The notes under the pieces were generated by a model, which did no database searches, was not told the DNA's origin, and worked only from the letters and a program-made list of their open reading frames with translations. A DNA stretch of 23,574 bases from a virus: IMG/VR virus record IMGVR_UViG_3300033153_002660, positions 1-23,574 of that record; one strand, written 5' to 3'. Each line of letters begins with the position of its first letter. The stretch's first letter is position 1. The translations under genes were made by a program, and so were the position numbers. Positions 1,817 to 15,001 of the stretch are shown piece by piece.

Positions 1817-2578
1817 ATGTACACAAAGTTATTTAATAAAAAGGGAATTTTACATGTTACGTCGATAGATAAAATTATTGGAGAGTTACTAAGTAACGGA
1901 GAGTTTAGTATTCAAGTTTCTGGAAGATTGGCTCCTAGTAATCCAAAAGGAGCTAGACAGATTCCTTGGATATTTATTAACGCAAACGTAAGGCATAAAT
2001 TTTGTTCTGTTTGGAACTCAGTCTATTGCGGAAAATTTAACCTGATTCCGACACACTGTAGATTTAACTGCTGGAAAACTGTAATTAAACCTAGAAATAT
2101 ACTAGAACTCTTCGATTGCTACAATGCCTTAAAAAGTTTAGACCTGCCCAGTAAGATAGGAATAGATGTACGAGATTATACATACGGAGCTTATGCAGGA
2201 TTTATCTATGCAGATAGTCTTGAGGAAGGAAAGAGATATTATCAATTAACTAGAAGGCAGATATCTAATAAAGTTCCTATTATCTTAAAACGAGGTTGTA
2301 CTGAAATGGAGAAACTTAAGCCTTCTAATACTTGGGATGATGTTTCAGTAGAAGAGCTTAGACTCGAAGAGCGTTTAAACGATCTATTTCAGTTTAACGA
2401 AATTAACTTCTACCAAGGCGGCTGGCTGATTCAGGAAATTAAAGAGCGTTGGATCAAACACAGTATTAAAATAGGCGATAAGTTTGCACAAGAGGCAGCT
2501 GAGAAGTTCTCTCTTAACCCTGATGTATGGAACAATCTTGTCGTATCAAGCGTCACTTATCACGATAAGGAGAACTAA
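1817..2578 (+). CDS. Cysteine-containing unknown protein, paralog A
   Basis: A 253-residue protein with a strong AAGGAGGG ribosome site. It is a clear paralog of the protein at 11162-12004. Shared blocks are C63-x-x-WN, then IP-x-x-C81-x3-C85-WK-x-VI, PSK-x-G-(I/V)-D-(I/V)-R at 111-119, Y-x-GFIYAD-x-LE-x-GKRYY at about 126-142, ILK-R/K-GC161TE-x-E, and a C-terminal TYH. Four cysteines (63, 81, 85, 161) align between the copies; the spacing from first to second is 18 residues in both, which suggests a metal site or disulfides. The family is not recognised, and no nuclease, methyltransferase or NTPase motif is visible. The ribosome site AAGGAG of the next gene lies in its last codons. Its place among virion genes suggests either a structural accessory or an inserted moron-like gene. 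Confidence 0.75.
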   Translation: MYTKLFNKKGILHVTSIDKIIGELLSNGEFSIQVSGRLAPSNPKGARQIPWIFINANVRHKFCSVWNSVYCGKFNLIPTHCRFNCWKTVIKPRNILELFDCYNALKSLDLPSKIGIDVRDYTYGAYAGFIYADSLEEGKRYYQLTRRQISNKVPIILKRGCTEMEKLKPSNTWDDVSVEELRLEERLNDLFQFNEINFYQGGWLIQEIKERWIKHSIKIGDKFAQEAAEKFSLNPDVWNNLVVSSVTYHDKEN

Positions 2579-2580
2579 TT

Positions 2581-2904
2581 ATGGCAACAGAAGTTCAATC
2601 TAAAGGAACGATTCAAATTACAGGAATAGCTGCTGATTGGGATTGGGGAACAGTGATGACTGACTTTCCAAATGATGTAAGACTTGCATCTATTACATTC
2701 GTTCCGGGAGCGGCTAATGATAAACTAATCGTTAAAGAAGATAGCGCTGCAGGAGCCGTTATTATGCACGCTTTATGTTTAGACACAGACGAGAAGATTA
2801 AATACTTCTACGGAACTAAACATTCTCCGTATGTAGACTTTAGCGATTGTATATTAAGCGCTGGGCATATGGTAATAATAGACCTCTGGTCGACTGGAGC
2901 GTAA
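2581..2904 (+). CDS. Small virion-associated protein (hypothetical)
   Basis: A 107-residue protein starting 2 nt after the TAA of paralog A, with its ribosome site AAGGAG inside that gene's end. The sequence reads as a compact beta protein: ITFVPGAANDKLIVKEDS near residues 38-55, then YFYGTKHSPYVDF and a final hydrophobic strand ending IIDLWSTGA. I recall similar short proteins from phage structural modules, but they have no standard name. There is no signal peptide or catalytic motif. A small decoration or tail protein is the best guess. It is the last gene before the lysis cassette. Confidence 0.6.
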   Translation: MATEVQSKGTIQITGIAADWDWGTVMTDFPNDVRLASITFVPGAANDKLIVKEDSAAGAVIMHALCLDTDEKIKYFYGTKHSPYVDFSDCILSAGHMVIIDLWSTGA

Positions 2905-4068: not shown

Positions 4069-5649
4069 ATGACTGACGAACGATTGATAATCGAAAATAT
4101 GTTTATGATAGTGAGTAAGGAAAAGGAGGATATTCCTTTCACACTAAACGAAACTCAACAAGCTCTTGATACTAACATGACGGGTCGAGACATTATTCCG
4201 AAAGCTCGGCAAGAAGGAGTATCGTCTTATATTCTAGCTCTTTTTTTAGTCCGATGTCTACATATTCAAAACACAAGGGCTGTTGTAATTAGTCATGATC
4301 AAGAATCTACTGAAAAGTTATTTAAGAAGGTAAAGTACTACTTAGACACGATTCGAGGCCCGAAAGCAGTCTTAGAGACAAGTTCTAAACGAGAGTTAAC
4401 GTTTCCTAAAACAAATTCTGTTTTCTACATCGGAACTGCCGGTGCTCGTAAATTCGGCCGAGGCGACACAATTACAGACTTGCATTGTTCAGAAGTCGCT
4501 TTCTGGGAAAATCCTAAAGAACTAACTTCAGGACTTTTTCAGTCTGTTCCTCGCTCCGGTACAATCCTGTTAGAAAGTACAGGAAACGGAAAGAACTGGT
4601 TTCATAAAAGAACTATGAAGGCATACGAAGGTAAAGGTAGATATCGTTGTCATTTCTTCAACTGGCAAAACTTCAATGAGTACGATCTTAAACTAACTGA
4701 AAGCGAAAAGAAACATATTTTAGATACACTAGACCCTGAAATGGAAGAAGTAAATCTATACGAGAATAATTTACTAACTCTAGGACAAATTCAATTTAGA
4801 AGGGAGAAACTAGAGGAGCTTGATTATGATTTAGAACTCTTCAAGCAAGAATATCCGATGACTATCGAAGAATGTTTTAAATCTACAGGTCGAAGTGTCT
4901 TCTATAAAGTTTGGTATCAGAAATCTAAAGCCTGGCAAAAGCAGTCTCTCGAACTCTCAACACTCGCCGGGCACCCTAAAGTAGACCTACACTATATAAT
5001 CGGAGCTGATGTAGGCGGCGGGGTAAGACTCGATAATTCTGTAATCGAGGTAGTTTGTCTCGAGACTGGAGAACAGGTAGTTGAGTGGGTTTCAAACATA
5101 GTACCTCCTGATGCCTTCGCTAAAAGTATTGCAAACCTTGGAAACTTATACAACAATGCATATATTGTAGTTGAAGCTAACAGTCATGGAATCTTGACAT
5201 TAAGCGAACTTCGAGGTACTTATCCTACATACTTAATACATAAGAAAAACGTAAATACTGCTGATAGAGATAGCGAGTTACTCCGTTACGGACTTTTACA
5301 AACAAGTAGAACAAAACCTTTATCGATAGGTCTACTTAGAAAATTACTGATAGACACAATTAAGATACACAGTCCGTTACTAAGGGATGAATTAGACACC
5401 TTTATTGAAAATGATGGCAAGTTAGAGGCCGAAGAAGGATGCTTTGACGACAGAGTTATGGCTATGGCCGCCCTTGCTTACGGCTTTGAACGAGGTGGAT
5501 TATTAGTAGACAGCGCTCCAAGACAAAGATCAACTGTTAATGATCCTTTTAGCCTTGACGCAATTATAAAGGAATTATCGGGTAGAGGTCGAAACTTCCC
5601 CATAAAACCACAAGTAGGTAACTATGCAAATTTTATATCTAGCAACTAA
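4069..5649 (+). CDS. terL: Terminase large subunit (DNA-packaging ATPase/nuclease)
   Basis: A 526-residue packaging motor that pumps DNA into the procapsid and cuts it. The ATPase half shows a phage-type Walker A, KARQEGVSS, at about 45-53, a Walker B with its catalytic glutamate in ITDLHCSE at 135-142, and a coupling motif LLESTGNG at 167-174. The nuclease half (RNase H-like) shows IGADVGGG with D314, VVEANSHG with E369, and CFDDRV with D460/D461. The length is normal for the family. No small terminase subunit lies in the window. The start has no visible Shine-Dalgarno sequence because the palindrome ends 8 nt upstream. The 3' end overlaps the PurD-like gene by 26 nt. Confidence 0.95.
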   Translation: MTDERLIIENMFMIVSKEKEDIPFTLNETQQALDTNMTGRDIIPKARQEGVSSYILALFLVRCLHIQNTRAVVISHDQESTEKLFKKVKYYLDTIRGPKAVLETSSKRELTFPKTNSVFYIGTAGARKFGRGDTITDLHCSEVAFWENPKELTSGLFQSVPRSGTILLESTGNGKNWFHKRTMKAYEGKGRYRCHFFNWQNFNEYDLKLTESEKKHILDTLDPEMEEVNLYENNLLTLGQIQFRREKLEELDYDLELFKQEYPMTIEECFKSTGRSVFYKVWYQKSKAWQKQSLELSTLAGHPKVDLHYIIGADVGGGVRLDNSVIEVVCLETGEQVVEWVSNIVPPDAFAKSIANLGNLYNNAYIVVEANSHGILTLSELRGTYPTYLIHKKNVNTADRDSELLRYGLLQTSRTKPLSIGLLRKLLIDTIKIHSPLLRDELDTFIENDGKLEAEEGCFDDRVMAMAALAYGFERGGLLVDSAPRQRSTVNDPFSLDAIIKELSGRGRNFPIKPQVGNYANFISSN

Positions 5650-6658
5650 TAACGACGGTACGGGAGTTGCTCATCAGTTAGAAAGAGAAGGAAATGGCGT
5701 TAAAGCTTTTATTCAACATGATTCTGTTTCTGGTACAGGAATTATAGATAGAGTAGACTCTTGGCGAGACTACATCAGTAGCGTTAATTTTGTAGTATCT
5801 ACTCATATGAGTTTTGCTAGGCACGAAAAGATTTTCAAAGACCTAGGAAAACCTTTTATAGGTTGTTCTCAATTTGGGAATTTGTTATTGACTACGAAAC
5901 GAGATAGCTTTCTATCTACCTATAACATTCCAAACGACGATAATTTACATATGTCGTACATGCTACACGGCTTCTTTAACGGACAGGATTGGGTAAGACC
6001 TCTAGTTTTAAGCAATCTTTACGATAAGTTACTTCCTGAAAACTTAGGTATAACATGCGACAATACAGGAATTGTATTAAAGTCTATTAAATACGAACCT
6101 CCTTTTATTGAAAGCATTTCAAAAGGATTGAGAAAACTAGGACTTCGTGATTTAGTCTCAATTTCTTTTAACGAAAATTACGAAGTTCGCCAGATTATCT
6201 GCGGACTTCTTCCTGTTGTTACGTATGGCATTATAGAAGGTATGCAGTCTTCACTAACGGATATTCTCTTCAATGTTGCTCAAGGTACAGCAACTGAGAT
6301 TGACTTTTCTGAAGATTATGTTGTAGGTGTAAAGCTAACCGTCCCTCCTTGGCCGTACAGAAGCGGGGCTGATTTCAACCTAGACCCACTGGAAATCCTA
6401 GGTTTAAACGATGAAAACTTAAAACATATAGCACTCTGCGGTGTAATCAAGGAAGGTGATAGATACTTCGCAGATTGCACAAACGGAAATACTATGTATG
6501 TTACAGCTCACGGAAGACATTTACACGAAGCACAAAGAAGGGTATATCGAACCTTGAAGAATATATCAATTAGCTATAAACAATATCGAGTTGGAGTAGG
6601 GGACGATGTTGAAATACTTCAACAAGATCATATAAGGAAAATTATACATGGCGTATAA
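5624..6658 (+). CDS. PurD-like ATP-grasp protein, apparently missing part of the ATP-binding domain
   Basis: A 344-residue protein that resembles phosphoribosylamine-glycine ligase (PurD). The N-terminal domain begins ILYLATNNDGTG-x-AHQLEREG. Residues 54-103 resemble the preATP-grasp segment ending in a STYNIP motif. Residues 115-160 match the GFFNGQDWVRP...DNTGIVLK part of the ATP-grasp fold. Residues 238-330 match the PurD C-terminal domain, with PPWPY, CGV, TNGNTMYVTAHG and HEAQRRVYRTL. Cellular PurD is about 430 residues. Here only about ten residues separate the STYNIP motif from the GFFNG part, where PurD carries its ATP-binding subdomain, so ATP binding may be lost. It overlaps terL by 26 nt and the portal gene by 11 nt, which ties its expression to packaging. 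The substrate and role are unknown. Confidence 0.7.
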   Translation: MQILYLATNNDGTGVAHQLEREGNGVKAFIQHDSVSGTGIIDRVDSWRDYISSVNFVVSTHMSFARHEKIFKDLGKPFIGCSQFGNLLLTTKRDSFLSTYNIPNDDNLHMSYMLHGFFNGQDWVRPLVLSNLYDKLLPENLGITCDNTGIVLKSIKYEPPFIESISKGLRKLGLRDLVSISFNENYEVRQIICGLLPVVTYGIIEGMQSSLTDILFNVAQGTATEIDFSEDYVVGVKLTVPPWPYRSGADFNLDPLEILGLNDENLKHIALCGVIKEGDRYFADCTNGNTMYVTAHGRHLHEAQRRVYRTLKNISISYKQYRVGVGDDVEILQQDHIRKIIHGV

Positions 6659-8330
6659 TAAACGAATACCTGATGTAGGTTGGTGGAGAGATCAATTAGC
6701 TGCCGGGATACGATTTCGAGAGCAGAACGCTTTTGAGCATAGATGGCCAACTTGGCGGTCTTATTATCGAGGAGAATGGGATAGCGGCGTACTTCCTATA
6801 AACCTTTTCTTTACGCTCTTACGTATGCTTGTACCTAGAGTTCACTTTAAAAATCCTGCAGTTTCTATTGTCTCCGCACAGCCTGGAATGTCTAATGCTA
6901 TCTTTGCGCAAATTCTAGAACGAGTTGATAATAAACTCCTTACTGCAATGAAGGTAAAGAAGCAGATAAAAAAGATGATTCAAGATACCTTTCTTTATGG
7001 AACAAGTTTCGGCAAGGTTGGCTTCGGCTCTCAATTTACTCCTGCTCCTATATCTCCAGTCACTATGCAGCCGCTCTCCAGACGATACGGAGTAGTAGAA
7101 TATAAAGCAGGAATTTTACCTAACATGCCTTGGTTTAGTAGAATACACCCTAGAAATGTAATCGTACCTAACGGTTGTGAAGATACTGATGACTGTCGTT
7201 GGCTATCGCATATTGTAGATAGGCCTATAATAGATGTAAAAAACGACAGCAGGTTTAAAAATACAAACGACATTAATCCAACAAGGCAGGTTTCTATCCA
7301 ACGGCACGGCACTAATGTTAATATAATGAAGCCAATCGAGATGACGAGACTTTATGAGATTCGAGACAGAAAATACGATCAAGTTACTGTAATCTGTGAA
7401 GATCATACAAAGCCACTTTATGTAGGCCCTGATACGTTACAAACCCGAACTGGCTTTTCTATTCTTCCTCTAATCTTTAACGTTGATGGAGATGTCTTTT
7501 GGGGAATACCTGATTCAATAATTGTAGAACCGCAACAACTAGAGATAAATGAAATTAGAACACAGGCTATGAAACATAGAAGAGTTTCCATCGTAAAGGT
7601 TCTCTATGAACAAGGTGTTATCGAAGAAACAGAACTTGAAAAGATGTTAAGCGAGGAAGTCCTAGCCGGTATTAAAGTCAAAGATATTAATAAAATAAAA
7701 CCTATGCAAATTTCTAATATTCCTAACGATTTAATGCTAGCCGCAGAGCAAATTCGTTCCGATGTTAGAGAGCAGATGGGGTTCTCGCGGAATCAAGCCG
7801 GAGAACTTTCGCAGAAGTCGGGCGATACTACGGCAACAGAAGCCTCTATAGTCCAGATGGCATCTGAGATTCGAGTCAACGAGCGTCAGGATGTTGTAGC
7901 TGATATGATGGTAAATCTAGTCGAGACTATACACGAGATTATATTTCAGTTTTGGCAGAAGGAACAAGTAATAGATTTAATAGGCCCGGGAGGAATTCCT
8001 GTCTGGGTCGAGTTTTCTGGGAAAATGCTAAGCGGAGGGTCTTTCGAAATCGTTATGGACGCTGACGCAGGTATGCCGATTTCTAGAACGGCGAGGACTA
8101 ACAAAGCTGTACAAATGTATCAGTTATTAAAGGATAATCCTTTGATAGATCCTATTCTATTAACTAAGCAACTTTTAAGGGAATTCCACGGTGTTCAGTA
8201 TGATTCACTTCTAAGGGGATTGCCTCAAGGAGCAGGCCAGGCGTTTCCTATGAATGTAGGACAGTTTGGACAGATGATGCAGAATGGCGCTAATTTAGGT
8301 TTATCTGCGCCGAAACAAAGGAGTGTATAA
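6648..8330 (+). CDS. Portal protein
   Basis: A 560-residue protein with the layout of a podovirus-type portal, the dodecameric ring at one capsid vertex through which DNA passes and on which terminase docks. Visible hallmarks: an N-terminal helical segment with PINLFFTLLRMLVPRVHFKNP at 50-70, MIQDTFLYGTSFGKVGF at 110-126, the IHPRNVIVPNG element at 166-176, a long helix with QQLEINEIRTQAMKHRR at 296-312, and the TTATEA motif at 394-399 before a long helix, common in portals. The C-terminus is Gly/Gln/Met-rich and probably flexible. It starts inside the end of the PurD-like gene with AAGGA upstream, and its TAA overlaps the next ATG by one base. Confidence 0.9.
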   Translation: MAYNKRIPDVGWWRDQLAAGIRFREQNAFEHRWPTWRSYYRGEWDSGVLPINLFFTLLRMLVPRVHFKNPAVSIVSAQPGMSNAIFAQILERVDNKLLTAMKVKKQIKKMIQDTFLYGTSFGKVGFGSQFTPAPISPVTMQPLSRRYGVVEYKAGILPNMPWFSRIHPRNVIVPNGCEDTDDCRWLSHIVDRPIIDVKNDSRFKNTNDINPTRQVSIQRHGTNVNIMKPIEMTRLYEIRDRKYDQVTVICEDHTKPLYVGPDTLQTRTGFSILPLIFNVDGDVFWGIPDSIIVEPQQLEINEIRTQAMKHRRVSIVKVLYEQGVIEETELEKMLSEEVLAGIKVKDINKIKPMQISNIPNDLMLAAEQIRSDVREQMGFSRNQAGELSQKSGDTTATEASIVQMASEIRVNERQDVVADMMVNLVETIHEIIFQFWQKEQVIDLIGPGGIPVWVEFSGKMLSGGSFEIVMDADAGMPISRTARTNKAVQMYQLLKDNPLIDPILLTKQLLREFHGVQYDSLLRGLPQGAGQAFPMNVGQFGQMMQNGANLGLSAPKQRSV

Positions 8331-8623
8331 TGCCTCTATATGATTATATGTGTGAAAACTGCGAAACAATTAAAGAAGTAGTAACCTGTATAGATAAGAC
8401 AAAAGAGACTATTTTTTGTGGTAGTTGTGGCGCTAAGATGAAACGAATATTAAGCACGTTCAAGATAGAGAAATTTCCCGAAGGTCTGTGGGATATAGGT
8501 AACAATTCGATAGAAATTCGATCGAGAAATCAACTTAGGGAGGTGATGAAACGACATAACGATAATCCAGACTCGACAAAACACAGCCAGGCGAAGTATT
8601 TAGACGGCTACTCAAGTTATTAA
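8330..8623 (+). CDS. FmdB-like zinc-ribbon protein
   Basis: A 97-residue protein whose first 45 residues form an FmdB-type zinc ribbon: MPLYDYMCENC at the start, then FCGSCGAKMKR, giving two C-x2-C pairs (C8/C11 and C30/C33) that would bind one zinc. The remaining half is charged and unassigned. FmdB-like ribbons are named after a putative regulator of formamidase genes and occur widely in bacteria; their biochemical role is poorly known. Here the gene overlaps the portal stop by one base and precedes the scaffold region, so it is co-expressed with capsid genes. A role as a virion assembly factor or a small regulator is possible; neither is shown by the sequence. Confidence 0.8.
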   Translation: MPLYDYMCENCETIKEVVTCIDKTKETIFCGSCGAKMKRILSTFKIEKFPEGLWDIGNNSIEIRSRNQLREVMKRHNDNPDSTKHSQAKYLDGYSSY

Positions 8624-9556: not shown

Positions 9557-10525
9557 ATGGCACTAACTTTAACAGAACAACTTGATAATCTCTATACTAC
9601 TACATGGGAGCATAGAAAAGCAAAAGCTCACGATAATATCTTCACCGCAACTCCATTTTGGTTTTGGCTTAAAGAGAAAGGCAAATTCCAGACTGAGCAA
9701 GGTGGACGTTTTATCATGGAGCCGCTTGAATATGCTAAAAATGATAGTGTAGAGTGGATAGGTAAGGGCGACGCTGTTTCGCTTAATGACTATGAGTTCT
9801 TAACTGAGTCTAAGTGGGACTGGCGTTATATGACTGCGTCACTTGTACGTTTCGGAGTCGATGATCAGCAGAATAGAGGAAAAGCAGCTATTATGAAGTT
9901 GATGACAAAGAAACTTGATAATACTGAAAACTCTATGATTGATGCCTTAGAGACTGCGTTATTTGCGGCACAGAGTGGGGATTCTATTGAGGGATTACAG
10001 AACTTAGTTCCTGATGATCCTACCGCTTCAGAGGATGCCGGAGGTGTGGATCCTAGTACATATACTTGGTTTAGAAATAACGCTAAGGATATGACAGGTC
10101 TTTCATTCTCTACTCAAGGTATTGCTGAGATGCGAACTATGTTAAACCTCTGCTCAAAGAATCGTTTACAGGACAAACCTGATATTATAGTTACTGCGCA
10201 GACTCCGTATGAGTACTACGAAGATGAAACTATGATTCAGAAGCAGATTGTTAATAAGACATTAGGTGACGCAGGGTTTCAGAATATCGAGTATAAAGGT
10301 ATTCCAATGATATGGAGTCCGGCGTGCGCTAGTGACCGGATGTATTTTCTTAATACTAACTTTCTTTATTTCGTCTACGATCCTATGATGAACTTCGATA
10401 TGACGGAATGGAAGGCGATTCCAGATCAAGTAAACGATAGAGCCGCACAGATTATTCTTGCTTGTGCGTTTATTATAACTCGAAGACTTTGCCAAGGACT
10501 TTTGTACGATATTGATACTGCATAG
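9557..10525 (+). CDS. Major capsid protein, probably HK97 fold
   Basis: A 322-residue protein with a good TAGGAG ribosome site, following the scaffold. The sequence carries features of a common phage major capsid family: an N-terminal helix LTEQLDNLYTTTWEHRK, a segment rich in aromatic residues (TPFWFWLKEKG) before a likely E-loop with GRFIMEPLEYAKNDSVEWIGKGD, the long helix around KLMTKKLDNTENSMIDALETAL, and a beta region near PDIIVTAQTPYEYYED followed by IPMIWSPAC and YFLNTNFLYFVYDP. The C-terminal part includes AAQIILACAFIITRR. There is no obvious N-terminal cleavage region, which agrees with the separate scaffold. A terminator-like hairpin follows the gene. Confidence 0.9.
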   Translation: MALTLTEQLDNLYTTTWEHRKAKAHDNIFTATPFWFWLKEKGKFQTEQGGRFIMEPLEYAKNDSVEWIGKGDAVSLNDYEFLTESKWDWRYMTASLVRFGVDDQQNRGKAAIMKLMTKKLDNTENSMIDALETALFAAQSGDSIEGLQNLVPDDPTASEDAGGVDPSTYTWFRNNAKDMTGLSFSTQGIAEMRTMLNLCSKNRLQDKPDIIVTAQTPYEYYEDETMIQKQIVNKTLGDAGFQNIEYKGIPMIWSPACASDRMYFLNTNFLYFVYDPMMNFDMTEWKAIPDQVNDRAAQIILACAFIITRRLCQGLLYDIDTA

Positions 10526-11161: not shown

Positions 11162-12004
11162 ATGAAGGGTAAAGTACAGCGAAGAGAGCTTCTACATAAA
11201 AGAAAGTCCGGAACAGTTCCAGGAAATATCCTGTTCGATGATTTTTATAACATACCTACAGGCATTACTGAAACACTATCGAGGTTGATGCAAACTAAGC
11301 AACTAATTTACGGCACTAAGGGTAAGTTAAAACCTAACATAATTCCTAGAAACGTTCTATCCCCTTGGTATCACAATCGTATGCCAACAAATCGAAGTTG
11401 TTTTCTTTGGAACGACATCTTCTTTGAGTATTTTAAGTTTATTCCTAGAGGCTGTAGAAATTGTTGGAAAGTAGTAATCGTAACAAATAAAAGACCTAGT
11501 AGGCAACGTGTCTTAGACTTATTTACATTAAGGGATATTCTAGTAAGGCTTAACGTTCCTTCAAAATGTGGTGTCGATATACGATTGCATACACCTAATA
11601 GATATTCAGGTTTTATCTATGCAGATAATCTTGAAGCAGGAAAACGATATTATCATCTGATTAAAGATGCACTAAGCACAGAGTTCAAAAACAGCACTGT
11701 AATACTAAAGAAAGGTTGTACTGAATTTGAACACTCGGTAGGAGATTCTAATTCCTGGGATGAGATAAGTCAGGCAAGACGTTGGGACAATCTTGAAGAT
11801 TATCTTAACTATATAATAGAAACTAACGATGAGTGTATTACAGAAGGACTTTTTCAACAACAAAACGTAGATACATTCAGATACTGGATAGAGTATGCAC
11901 ACTGTATTGGAGATAGTTCTTGGCGAAAAGCCCTCGAATCTCAAGGATATATAGTGCCAAAGACACTCTTTCCTAAACCGATAACGTATCATGAGGAGAA
12001 ATAG
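11162..12004 (+). CDS. Cysteine-containing unknown protein, paralog B
   Basis: A 280-residue relative of the protein at 1817-2578. Shared blocks are C80-x-x-WN, F-IP-x-x-C98-x2-C101-WK-VVI, PSK-x-GVDIR at 133-141, Y-SGFIYAD-x-LE-x-GKRYY at 148-164, ILKKGC186TEFE, a W-x(2)-IS segment, an IGD motif at 249-251 and a C-terminal TYHEE. C80, C98, C101 and C186 match C63, C81, C85 and C161 of paralog A. The N-terminal 40 residues are basic and specific to this copy. DNA similarity persists in the core, for example 11609-11655 against 2198-2244 with only a few differences. It has an AAGGAG site, and its last codons carry the GAGGAG site of the next gene. The function is unknown. Confidence 0.75.
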   Translation: MKGKVQRRELLHKRKSGTVPGNILFDDFYNIPTGITETLSRLMQTKQLIYGTKGKLKPNIIPRNVLSPWYHNRMPTNRSCFLWNDIFFEYFKFIPRGCRNCWKVVIVTNKRPSRQRVLDLFTLRDILVRLNVPSKCGVDIRLHTPNRYSGFIYADNLEAGKRYYHLIKDALSTEFKNSTVILKKGCTEFEHSVGDSNSWDEISQARRWDNLEDYLNYIIETNDECITEGLFQQQNVDTFRYWIEYAHCIGDSSWRKALESQGYIVPKTLFPKPITYHEEK

Positions 12005-12215: not shown

Positions 12216-12902
12216 ATGGGAGCAATGACTGAAAGTCAGATGGAAGCTGAAATCAGAGCTAATCTTGGAGATCGAACTGATCTCGACTCCAGACTCGTAA
12301 CCTTTATAAACTGGGCGCAGGAAGAAATTGCAAGACAGCATACATTTAGAGAGCTTCAAGAGATTAATACTAGTATAACTACTACAGCAGATTTAGTTAA
12401 GAATTCTCTACCCACGGGTACAAGAAACTTAATATCTATTAGACTTCTAGACGGAACTAGCAGTCGAAAAGTAATATATGTTCCGTCTGGACTCTTTGAT
12501 AAAAACTTTCCTAGCCCTGCTGAATACGCAACAAGTCGTCCTACACATTATACTCTATACGGAGACGTCATATACTGGTGGAGAGTCCCTAACGATGCTT
12601 ATAGTGTCGAACTAAAAAGAGAACTCTGGCCTACTGCATTAACAGCGGCTAGCGCTACAGTCTCAGATTTAGAAAACCTCGACGAAGCTATCTGCGGTCT
12701 TGCTACAGCAAAAGCGCTTAAATCTATAGGTGCTGACGTTAAGAAAGTTTCTATCTTTATGAAAGATGCTAACTTTATTATAAAGGAAGCTATTAGACGA
12801 GACAAAACTTTATACGCCGATCAGGATATTCGAGCGGACTATAACTTTGGCCGAGGAAGTTCTGATTATTGGTTAGATCCATTTGTAAGAAGATCGCCTT
12901 AG
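12216..12902 (+). CDS. Head-tail adaptor (connector) protein
   Basis: A 228-residue protein whose order of motifs fits the adaptor family that lines the bottom of the portal in short-tailed phages: MTESQMEAEIRANLGDRTDLDSRLVTFINWAQEEIAR (two helices, 4-40), a beta region with SLPTGTRNLISIRLL, SRPTHYTLYGDVIYWWRVPND at about 107-127, then ELWPTALTAAS and LDEAICGLATAKALKSIG (about 149-166) and a long C-terminal helix. The LDEA-x-x-x-LATAKAL part is especially typical. The position after the capsid genes and before fibre, spike and nozzle genes agrees. It would seal the portal and provide the platform for the tail. Confidence 0.75.
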   Translation: MGAMTESQMEAEIRANLGDRTDLDSRLVTFINWAQEEIARQHTFRELQEINTSITTTADLVKNSLPTGTRNLISIRLLDGTSSRKVIYVPSGLFDKNFPSPAEYATSRPTHYTLYGDVIYWWRVPNDAYSVELKRELWPTALTAASATVSDLENLDEAICGLATAKALKSIGADVKKVSIFMKDANFIIKEAIRRDKTLYADQDIRADYNFGRGSSDYWLDPFVRRSP

Positions 12903-13640: not shown

Positions 13641-15001
13641 TGATTCTTAGACGAATGGCGTTGTCAAGGACGCAAGAAATAGTAGAATACGACGACGGTT
13701 CTATAAAGCGTCTTTGTTACGCAAAGCATAATCCGCATTTCTTTAAAGATAAACGTGGACGTTTATATCCTATAGAACTTTTCCCTCATAGAGATAGAAC
13801 CCCCAATCGAGAAAGTATTTATGTTTGGCGAAATAATGTCTGTTCAGTGGGAATTAAAAGATCAGGAAATAAGCGAAAGTACTTGGGAATCAGGCCAGAC
13901 ACAGAGCAGGAAGAAGGAAAAGAACAGCTTGAATTTTCTATAGATAGTATAAGATTAGACAATGCTCCGACAACAGTAGACCTTTACGAACCGTCTAGAA
14001 TAGAACCACATATAATTAGAACTGGTGTTATGACTATTATTAATACCAGACAAGGTGTTAAACAACTCTATAAAGTTACGAATCCAATAAGAAACTTTGA
14101 GATTAGATTAAAGCTTGACTTAACTGGACTTGTAGTAAAGCCTACAGGAAAGAATTTTGATTTCTTCAGCGCTGAAAGTAAAAAGTTTCGATTTAGAATC
14201 AGACCTCCTGTTTATTTAGATCAAGAGTTTAATCCAATTTTAGATAGTAATATTACACATAGTTTAGTTAAGGAAGGCGGAGACTGGATATATACTAAAA
14301 AGAATTTAACTTCGATAGATACTTCAGGTTCTTTTACGCCTTACTATATTGATGCAGATATAGTTTATAGCTCTACAGCTGACGGATATGTTTTAGGTTC
14401 TAATGCTTCGTGGGCTACGGCGAGAACTACTCCAACAGATGTCGATTCGACATCAGCTCACGCAGTTACAGGAACAGCGAATAAGTCATTAACTGATACA
14501 TATATGATCTATCGTGGCTTCTATATGTTCGATACTTCAGGAGTAGTAGCAGCTGCTGGTGCATGTTCGTTATTTATAAGAGGACATACCGATAGCACAG
14601 GCACAATGTACGATGTCTGTGCTATGGAAGGAACACAAGGAGATACATTAACTACAGGAGACTATAACGCATTTACAGGAGTTTATTACGGAATAGTCGA
14701 TCCTTGGGTCGCTTCTGATTGGAATGAAATAGTCTTTAACGATCTAGGTTGCGGAAATATTAATGGGGGCGGAACTACATATATTTGTTGTAGAAATTAT
14801 ACACATGATTATTCTAATACTCCTGTAGGTGTAACCTCCGCACATCAAGGATATTATACAGATCAAGCAGGGCAGGATTACGATCCATACCTTTCAATAG
14901 ATGCACTTTGGCCGCACAAAGTTTATGGTATAGATGCTCCGCAGAAGATTGTAACTATAGATGGACACTATATTCAATCTTTTGCGACAGTAGATAAGTA
15001 A
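13640..15001 (+). CDS. Fibre-like virion protein with C-terminal beta-sandwich domain
   Basis: A 453-residue protein translated with a one-base overlap from the previous gene. Residues 1-110 are a charged N-terminal domain with IYVWRNNVCSVGIKR and LEFSIDSIRLD. Residues 110-230 are a second beta-type region. Residues 235-422 form a domain with IVYSSTADGYV, YRGFYMFDTSGV at 291-301, WNEIVFNDLG at 361-370 and DPYLSI at 415-420. These last motifs reappear in the protein at the left edge, so the phage carries the domain twice. I infer a jelly-roll or carbohydrate-binding-like fold from the pattern. No catalytic residues are apparent. Copy 3 of the palindrome follows 12 nt after the stop. Confidence 0.65.
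   Translation: MILRRMALSRTQEIVEYDDGSIKRLCYAKHNPHFFKDKRGRLYPIELFPHRDRTPNRESIYVWRNNVCSVGIKRSGNKRKYLGIRPDTEQEEGKEQLEFSIDSIRLDNAPTTVDLYEPSRIEPHIIRTGVMTIINTRQGVKQLYKVTNPIRNFEIRLKLDLTGLVVKPTGKNFDFFSAESKKFRFRIRPPVYLDQEFNPILDSNITHSLVKEGGDWIYTKKNLTSIDTSGSFTPYYIDADIVYSSTADGYVLGSNASWATARTTPTDVDSTSAHAVTGTANKSLTDTYMIYRGFYMFDTSGVVAAAGACSLFIRGHTDSTGTMYDVCAMEGTQGDTLTTGDYNAFTGVYYGIVDPWVASDWNEIVFNDLGCGNINGGGTTYICCRNYTHDYSNTPVGVTSAHQGYYTDQAGQDYDPYLSIDALWPHKVYGIDAPQKIVTIDGHYIQSFATVDK

Follow-up and report, generated by a model that had tools for sequence, protein, structure and literature searches.

Phage proteins with four conserved cysteines, relatives in lasso-type RiPP clusters and a putative role in modifying peptides and virion proteins

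ORF A and ORF B, two genes in the 23,574-nucleotide stretch of viral DNA analyzed here (IMG/VR record IMGVR_UViG_3300033153_002660, positions 1 to 23,574; the window), belong to a large, undescribed protein family, a few members of which are found in bacteria inside lasso-type RiPP gene clusters. Because these relatives lie in lasso-peptide clusters, A and B are probably metal-containing modifiers of neighboring virion proteins. The explanation that we prefer is that the family comprises peptide- or protein-modifying enzymes with a metal site (Fe-S or Zn), each phage copy being dedicated to the adjacent virion protein, and we hold it with about even confidence.

In the window, a repeat-rich protein is followed by a 149-residue phrog_644 protein, A, small proteins, an amidase endolysin and the terminase; beyond these lie an ATP-grasp-like protein, the portal, a scaffold-like protein, the major capsid protein, a 161-residue structural protein, B, an adaptor-type protein and the tail genes (Table 1). 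Near A and B, no RiPP precursor, PqqD or cyclase gene is present in the window, which contains phage structural, packaging and lysis genes and the one ATP-grasp-like gene. The phrog_644 relatives of the 149-residue protein occur in the lysis-proximal tail region of Gordonia phages, and one of them, upstream of lysin A, is annotated as a minor tail protein; the AlphaFold model of the window protein is poor (pLDDT 63). The capsid protein has relatives among the Mx9 and Mx8 capsid proteins. We regard the 149-residue protein as the candidate target of A and both the capsid protein and the 161-residue protein as candidate targets of B.

Table 1. Positions of ORF A, ORF B and their neighbors in the window
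Feature	Position	Strand	Product or best match	Location or role
c18 (cluster-18)/phrog_644 protein, 149 aa	1338..1787	+	phrog_644, E=2.5e-16	directly 5' of A
ORF A (paralog A)	1817..2578	+	253 aa, ATG start	family member
107-aa protein	2581..2904	+	no Pfam match	directly 3' of A
Major capsid protein	9557..10525	+	phrog_9953 major head protein, 5.8e-45	two genes 5' of B
Virion structural (decoration-type) protein, 161 aa	10631..11116	+	phrog_29386, 1.4e-12	directly 5' of B
ORF B (paralog B)	11162..12004	+	280 aa, ATG start	common family position 3' of major capsid gene
Tail/adaptor-type protein	12216..12902	+	phrog_6013 tail protein, E=0.009; neighbor clusters 1/6	3' of B

Three further products of the window are of separate interest. 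The repeat-rich protein (positions 123-1067) has repeats of ~20 residues, (S/A)LxFTGKxLxxxxxxxIxLxK, that are also present in locus L009; it is a possible fibrous protein of the tail or of an appendage. Between the terminase and the portal, positions 5624-6658 encode a 344-residue protein that matches GARS_C weakly (PurD-type ATP-grasp; E=3e-4), and its counterpart in locus L012 (12313-13335) matches the same model with E=2e-6, both below the Pfam cutoff; an ATP-grasp-like ligase within a packaging/portal block is unusual. Directly 3' of the portal gene, at 8330-8623, is a 97-residue Zn_ribbon_8 protein (PF09723, 8e-9), and similar zinc-ribbon ORFs are located at the equivalent place in L012 and L014.

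ORF A and ORF B are closely preceded by the ribosome-binding sites GGAGG and GGAG, respectively. When ORF A is compared with its counterpart in L009, conservation at codon positions 1, 2 and 3 is 0.65, 0.73 and 0.30; the greater conservation of the first two positions relative to orthologues indicates that A and B are real genes under purifying selection. The two products are 34% identical over 252 residues (BLASTP, 123 bits, E=2e-38), and their Smith-Waterman score, 329, is far above the scores of 500 shuffles (mean 34, standard deviation 5.5, maximum 67). Residues Cys63, Cys81, Cys85 and Cys161 of ORF A, spaced C-x17-C-x3-C ... C, align with Cys80, Cys98, Cys101 and Cys186 of ORF B, whereas the remaining cysteines (71 and 101 in A; 136, 225 and 248 in B) are not shared. 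An earlier sequence-only reading of this DNA, which had placed two homologous genes at these positions, paired these four cysteines and matched the proteins to no family, is borne out on all three points. Its description of a duplicated pair holds for the homology but not for a private pair, A and B being members of a much larger family.

Neither ORF has a match in Pfam at E≤10, and profile searches with both matched no known enzyme or homing endonuclease family. The family as a whole has no significant match in NCBIfam, PHROGs or PDB sequences; weak matches in PHROGs and Pfam (E>0.04) were dismissed as chance. No family gene was detected in the annotated phages of INPHARED by tblastn with five members, and a literature search on the motif NCWK returned unrelated papers only. 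In contrast, successive profile scans of IMG/VR confirmed the family in 90 and then in 194 stretches. It thus occurs in ~200 IMG/VR stretches but has no representative in the collections searched (annotated phages, Pfam, NCBIfam and PHROGs). The protein family itself is without a described relative. Its members are almost all from uncultured viruses, and those of phages are all metagenomic. Searches of 396 genomes in each of two phyla and of 200 genomes of the Acidobacteria family gave no members beyond those already known, indicating that the non-phage branch is rare. The set used below comprises 153 genes, identified by our own greedy gene calls in fetched loci that partly overlap on the same contigs; removal of redundancy at 90% identity left 117 distinct genes.

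The usual position of a family gene is one or two genes 3' of the major capsid gene. Among 95 labelled members, 76 follow a capsid or decoration gene, 4 precede a capsid gene, 9 are beside cluster-15 proteins and 6, including A, are beside cluster-18 proteins; homology between clusters 15 and 18 was unsupported by profile comparison, and they are treated as separate groups. The adjoining capsid genes belong to at least four families (phrog_334, 212, 371 and 9953). Of 231 neighbors, 207 share the strand of the family gene, and the median downstream gap is -4 bases. In one clade, the gene directly 3' encodes a PF03692 protein (CxxCxxCC, FliB-type Fe-S). Such a gene adjoins 17 of 102 family genes tested, or 17-18 of about 110, and mostly overlaps the family gene. 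Genomes carry one to three copies at recurrent operon positions, usually near the capsid gene. The three copies of phage contig L107 (3900-4601, 9956-10990 and 14524-15273) belong to different clades and have different neighbors; a small cysteine-rich protein directly 5' of the third (14324-14527) is a possible second partner.

A maximum-likelihood tree of the 117 distinct sequences was obtained by a careful search, and its deep forks are weakly supported. A falls in a clade of five (support 100/98), all with the cluster-18 protein immediately upstream; this neighbor is found in L009, L010, L011 and L012 and, independently, in L062. B falls in a clade of three (support 100/100) with the major capsid gene at -2, and the gene order of capsid protein, small protein, family member and adaptor is conserved. 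The path between A and B is 3.03, as compared with 0.97 from A and 1.63 from B to their respective orthologues in L012. Where a genome has several copies, these belong to separate clades, every copy accompanied by a neighbor of its own; they are likewise far apart in L009, L012, L041, L042, L120 and L107. When the neighbor classes are placed on the tree, with clusters 15 and 18 separate, they change 7 times as compared with a mean of 18.6 for shuffled labels, a difference that is partly confounded by the shared ancestry of the phages. Two loci show that the pairing with neighbors arose more than once: in L062, cluster 18 adjoins a family gene from a different clade, and in L029, cluster 15 adjoins one from another clade. 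Since A and B diverged anciently and each has kept its own structural neighbor, they look like two dedicated copies and not one pair, and the useful paired role previously proposed for them is better worded in these terms.

Conservation was counted over 118 aligned sequences that include phage and bacterial members (ORF A numbering). Residues Cys63, Cys85, Cys161, Lys87, Lys113 and Lys158 are present in all 118, Cys81, Gly115, Thr162 and Glu163 in 117 each, and position 159 is Arg or Lys throughout. Such near-strict invariance in proteins that are often less than 30-35% identical to one another indicates a functional site, and the combination of four cysteines and three lysines looks like an active site rather than a scaffold. 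The AlphaFold2 model, made with 77 relatives, is confident (pLDDT 91.3, pTM 0.86) and has a core, residues 86-159, with a predicted strand-helix-strand-strand-helix-strand order that corresponds to a ferredoxin-like topology. In the model, Cys85 is just before strand 1 and Cys161 just after strand 4, Cys81 is four residues from Cys85, Cys63 starts the helix that precedes strand 1, and Lys87 lies on strand 1, Lys113 on strand 2 and Lys158 on strand 4. In ferredoxin-like folds, strands 1 and 4 run antiparallel side by side, with the beginning of the former next to the end of the latter, and Cys85 and Cys161 should therefore adjoin at the same edge of the sheet; all four cysteines may cluster there. 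A metal site is supported by the near-strict conservation of the four cysteines together with the modeled topology; the sequence-only reading had suggested a zinc site, and Fe-S is judged likelier than Zn. Fold searches with the model against PDB and BFVD gave no significant match (best PDB match, E 7.5e-3, TM 0.25), and no cofactor-binding or catalytic motif of any known enzyme was found in the family. Assignment to the radical SAM enzymes was rejected, the family having no CxxxCxxC motif and a ferredoxin-like model instead of a TIM-barrel-type fold.

The substrate is suggested by three non-phage members, L086 and L087 from Acidobacteria and L158 from Thalassobaculum, two of which are sister lineages. 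The L086 and L087 clusters contain no phage genes. Directly 5' of the family gene is a conserved 53-residue precursor-like ORF (L086, ...WSKPTITLLDVESGTLTTSGPVSDGNGSTS; L087, ...WTKPSITVLDVETGTLTTSGPVADGNGSTS), and on its 3' side are a 2OG-Fe(II) oxygenase (2e-18), a PqqD-like ORF, a sulfotransferase (4e-30) and an HPr-kinase-like ORF (2e-6, below cutoff); an asparagine synthase (4e-20) is on the opposite strand, and no B2 was found within the stretch. L158 (NZ_CP139716.1, 45988-70569; family protein WP_322335124.1) is part of a mobilizable plasmid carried by Thalassobaculum sp. OXR-137, which is in culture. There, a lasso PqqD (NF033536, 90.8 bits; cutoff 80) adjoins the family gene, accompanied by a lasso B2 (NF033537, 65.7 bits; cutoff 33), an asparagine synthase-related protein with lasso cyclase as its best NCBIfam match, below cutoff, two HprK-like ORFs, an annotated sulfotransferase, a precursor-like ORF and, judged by eye only, a probable 2OG-oxygenase. 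The components of a lasso cluster (precursor, PqqD, B2 and an asparagine-synthase-type cyclase) are found with the non-phage members, most fully in L158. Because a matching gene set recurs in two phyla, adjacency by chance is unlikely, and a ribosomal peptide substrate is indicated. If the core of the L158 precursor-like ORF (...RRPWSAPRLSLLPIENTLGPSTFSSGQAAHVS) starts at GPST, it has no Asp/Glu acceptor at the customary positions 7-9, and the ring chemistry may be unusual. Another member, L085, is from a Bacteroidota genome but resembles phage DNA, with adaptor-type neighbors (by eye).

HPr-kinase homologues and Fe/2OG hydroxylases such as CanE are known lasso-peptide tailoring enzymes (PMC8498205); these have the same genomic setting as the three non-phage members but no sequence similarity to the family, which has no Pfam or NCBIfam model. 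Residues Arg119 and Glu/Asp117, near-invariant in the phage members, differ in the RiPP-cluster members, where Arg119 is lost and position 117 is changed, and the Thalassobaculum member also lacks Glu163, so that activity may differ between the two groups. The alteration of these positions, with retention of the four cysteines and three lysines, suggests that the core reaction is common to both and that the substrate side is different.

In the mechanism that we propose, the four invariant cysteines would bind a metal, probably Fe-S and possibly Zn, along one edge of the ferredoxin-like domain, and the invariant lysines on strands 1, 2 and 4 would line an adjoining surface that binds an anion or a cofactor. 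The bacterial branch would be a tailoring enzyme of lasso-type RiPP clusters that acts on the RiPP precursor; among the phage copies, A would serve the 149-residue protein and B the capsid protein or the 161-residue structural protein. The homology, the invariant residues, the fold prediction, the association with neighbors and the membership in RiPP clusters are observed; the metal, the catalysis, the choice of target neighbor and the chemistry are the parts of this reading that we infer. Of the three roles suggested by the sequence-only reading, that of protein modifier is, as a predicted function, the best supported, by the relatives in lasso-type RiPP clusters of two phyla. By analogy only, and not by homology, the family may resemble FliB, in which a CxxCxxCC-like motif holds a [4Fe-4S] cluster needed for methylation of flagellin lysines (PMC8598068): in both cases, an enzyme with a cluster of cysteines would act on a structural protein that is abundant at the surface, and one phage clade has a PF03692 gene immediately 3' of the family gene. 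However, the family has no CxxCxxCC motif, its cysteines being spread over ~100 residues, and membership in FliB/PF03692 was rejected since members A, B and A2 have no PF03692 match.

An alternative, in which the copies are themselves parts of the head or tail and use the four cysteines to bind Fe-S or Zn in a structural capacity, appears rather unlikely. The genes are within head-tail operons, and a four-cysteine Fe-S cluster is known in the phage tail hub (lambda gpL and the R4C/RcGTA hub; PMC10276861), which the family resembles in size, its four conserved cysteines and location in a structural operon. In contrast to the hub, the family is mostly beside the capsid gene and also occurs outside phages, in RiPP clusters without virion genes; the three invariant strand lysines suggest a reactive site, and the number of copies (one to three) and their varied operon positions also argue against a structural component. 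Identity with the tail hub itself was rejected, the PDB hub structures matching neither the sequence nor the fold of the family and Pfam being empty at E≤10.

It seems quite improbable to us that the family assists assembly or maturation without catalyzing a reaction, as a chaperone or scaffold folded around Zn and bound to the neighboring structural protein or RiPP precursor. Adjacency to structural genes and to the RiPP precursor and PqqD, a peptide-binding chaperone, would suit such a factor in both contexts, but strict conservation of four cysteines, three lysines and Arg159 is a pattern seen more often in catalytic sites, and the partners are of redox type (CxxCxxCC protein and 2OG oxygenase).

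Basic-faced ferredoxin-like sheets bind nucleic acids, and Foldseek gave weak matches to ribosomal and Rep proteins; a regulator or enzyme that binds nucleotides or nucleic acid through such a sheet is nevertheless very doubtful, because these matches are non-significant and scattered over unrelated small ferredoxin-like proteins and because the RiPP context indicates a peptide substrate. A gene of the selfish or homing type, inserting close to conserved structural genes and also among the earlier suggestions, is scarcely credible: the variety of operon positions and the presence of as many as three copies in one genome (L107) would accord with it, but no transposase or endonuclease match (HNH, GIY-YIG, LAGLIDADG or PD-(D/E)XK) was found, the RiPP-cluster members lie between precursor and tailoring genes, coupling to neighbors, including the PF03692 partner, is tight and on the same strand at recurrent positions, and the copies are ancient and have stayed with their own neighbors.

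The peptide- or protein-modifying enzyme with a metal site is accordingly the reading that we retain. A bolder form of it, in which a single metalloenzyme family with a novel fold arrangement and chemistry modifies bacterial lasso-type RiPP precursors as well as the capsid or tail proteins of a broad range of uncultured phages, which keep one diverged copy for each target, is tentative. The members in RiPP clusters provide a testable handle, namely a short, defined peptide substrate for an enzyme with phage relatives. If the phage members modify virion proteins, they would represent a widespread and unrecognized chemistry of the phage particle and a source of peptide-modifying enzymes.
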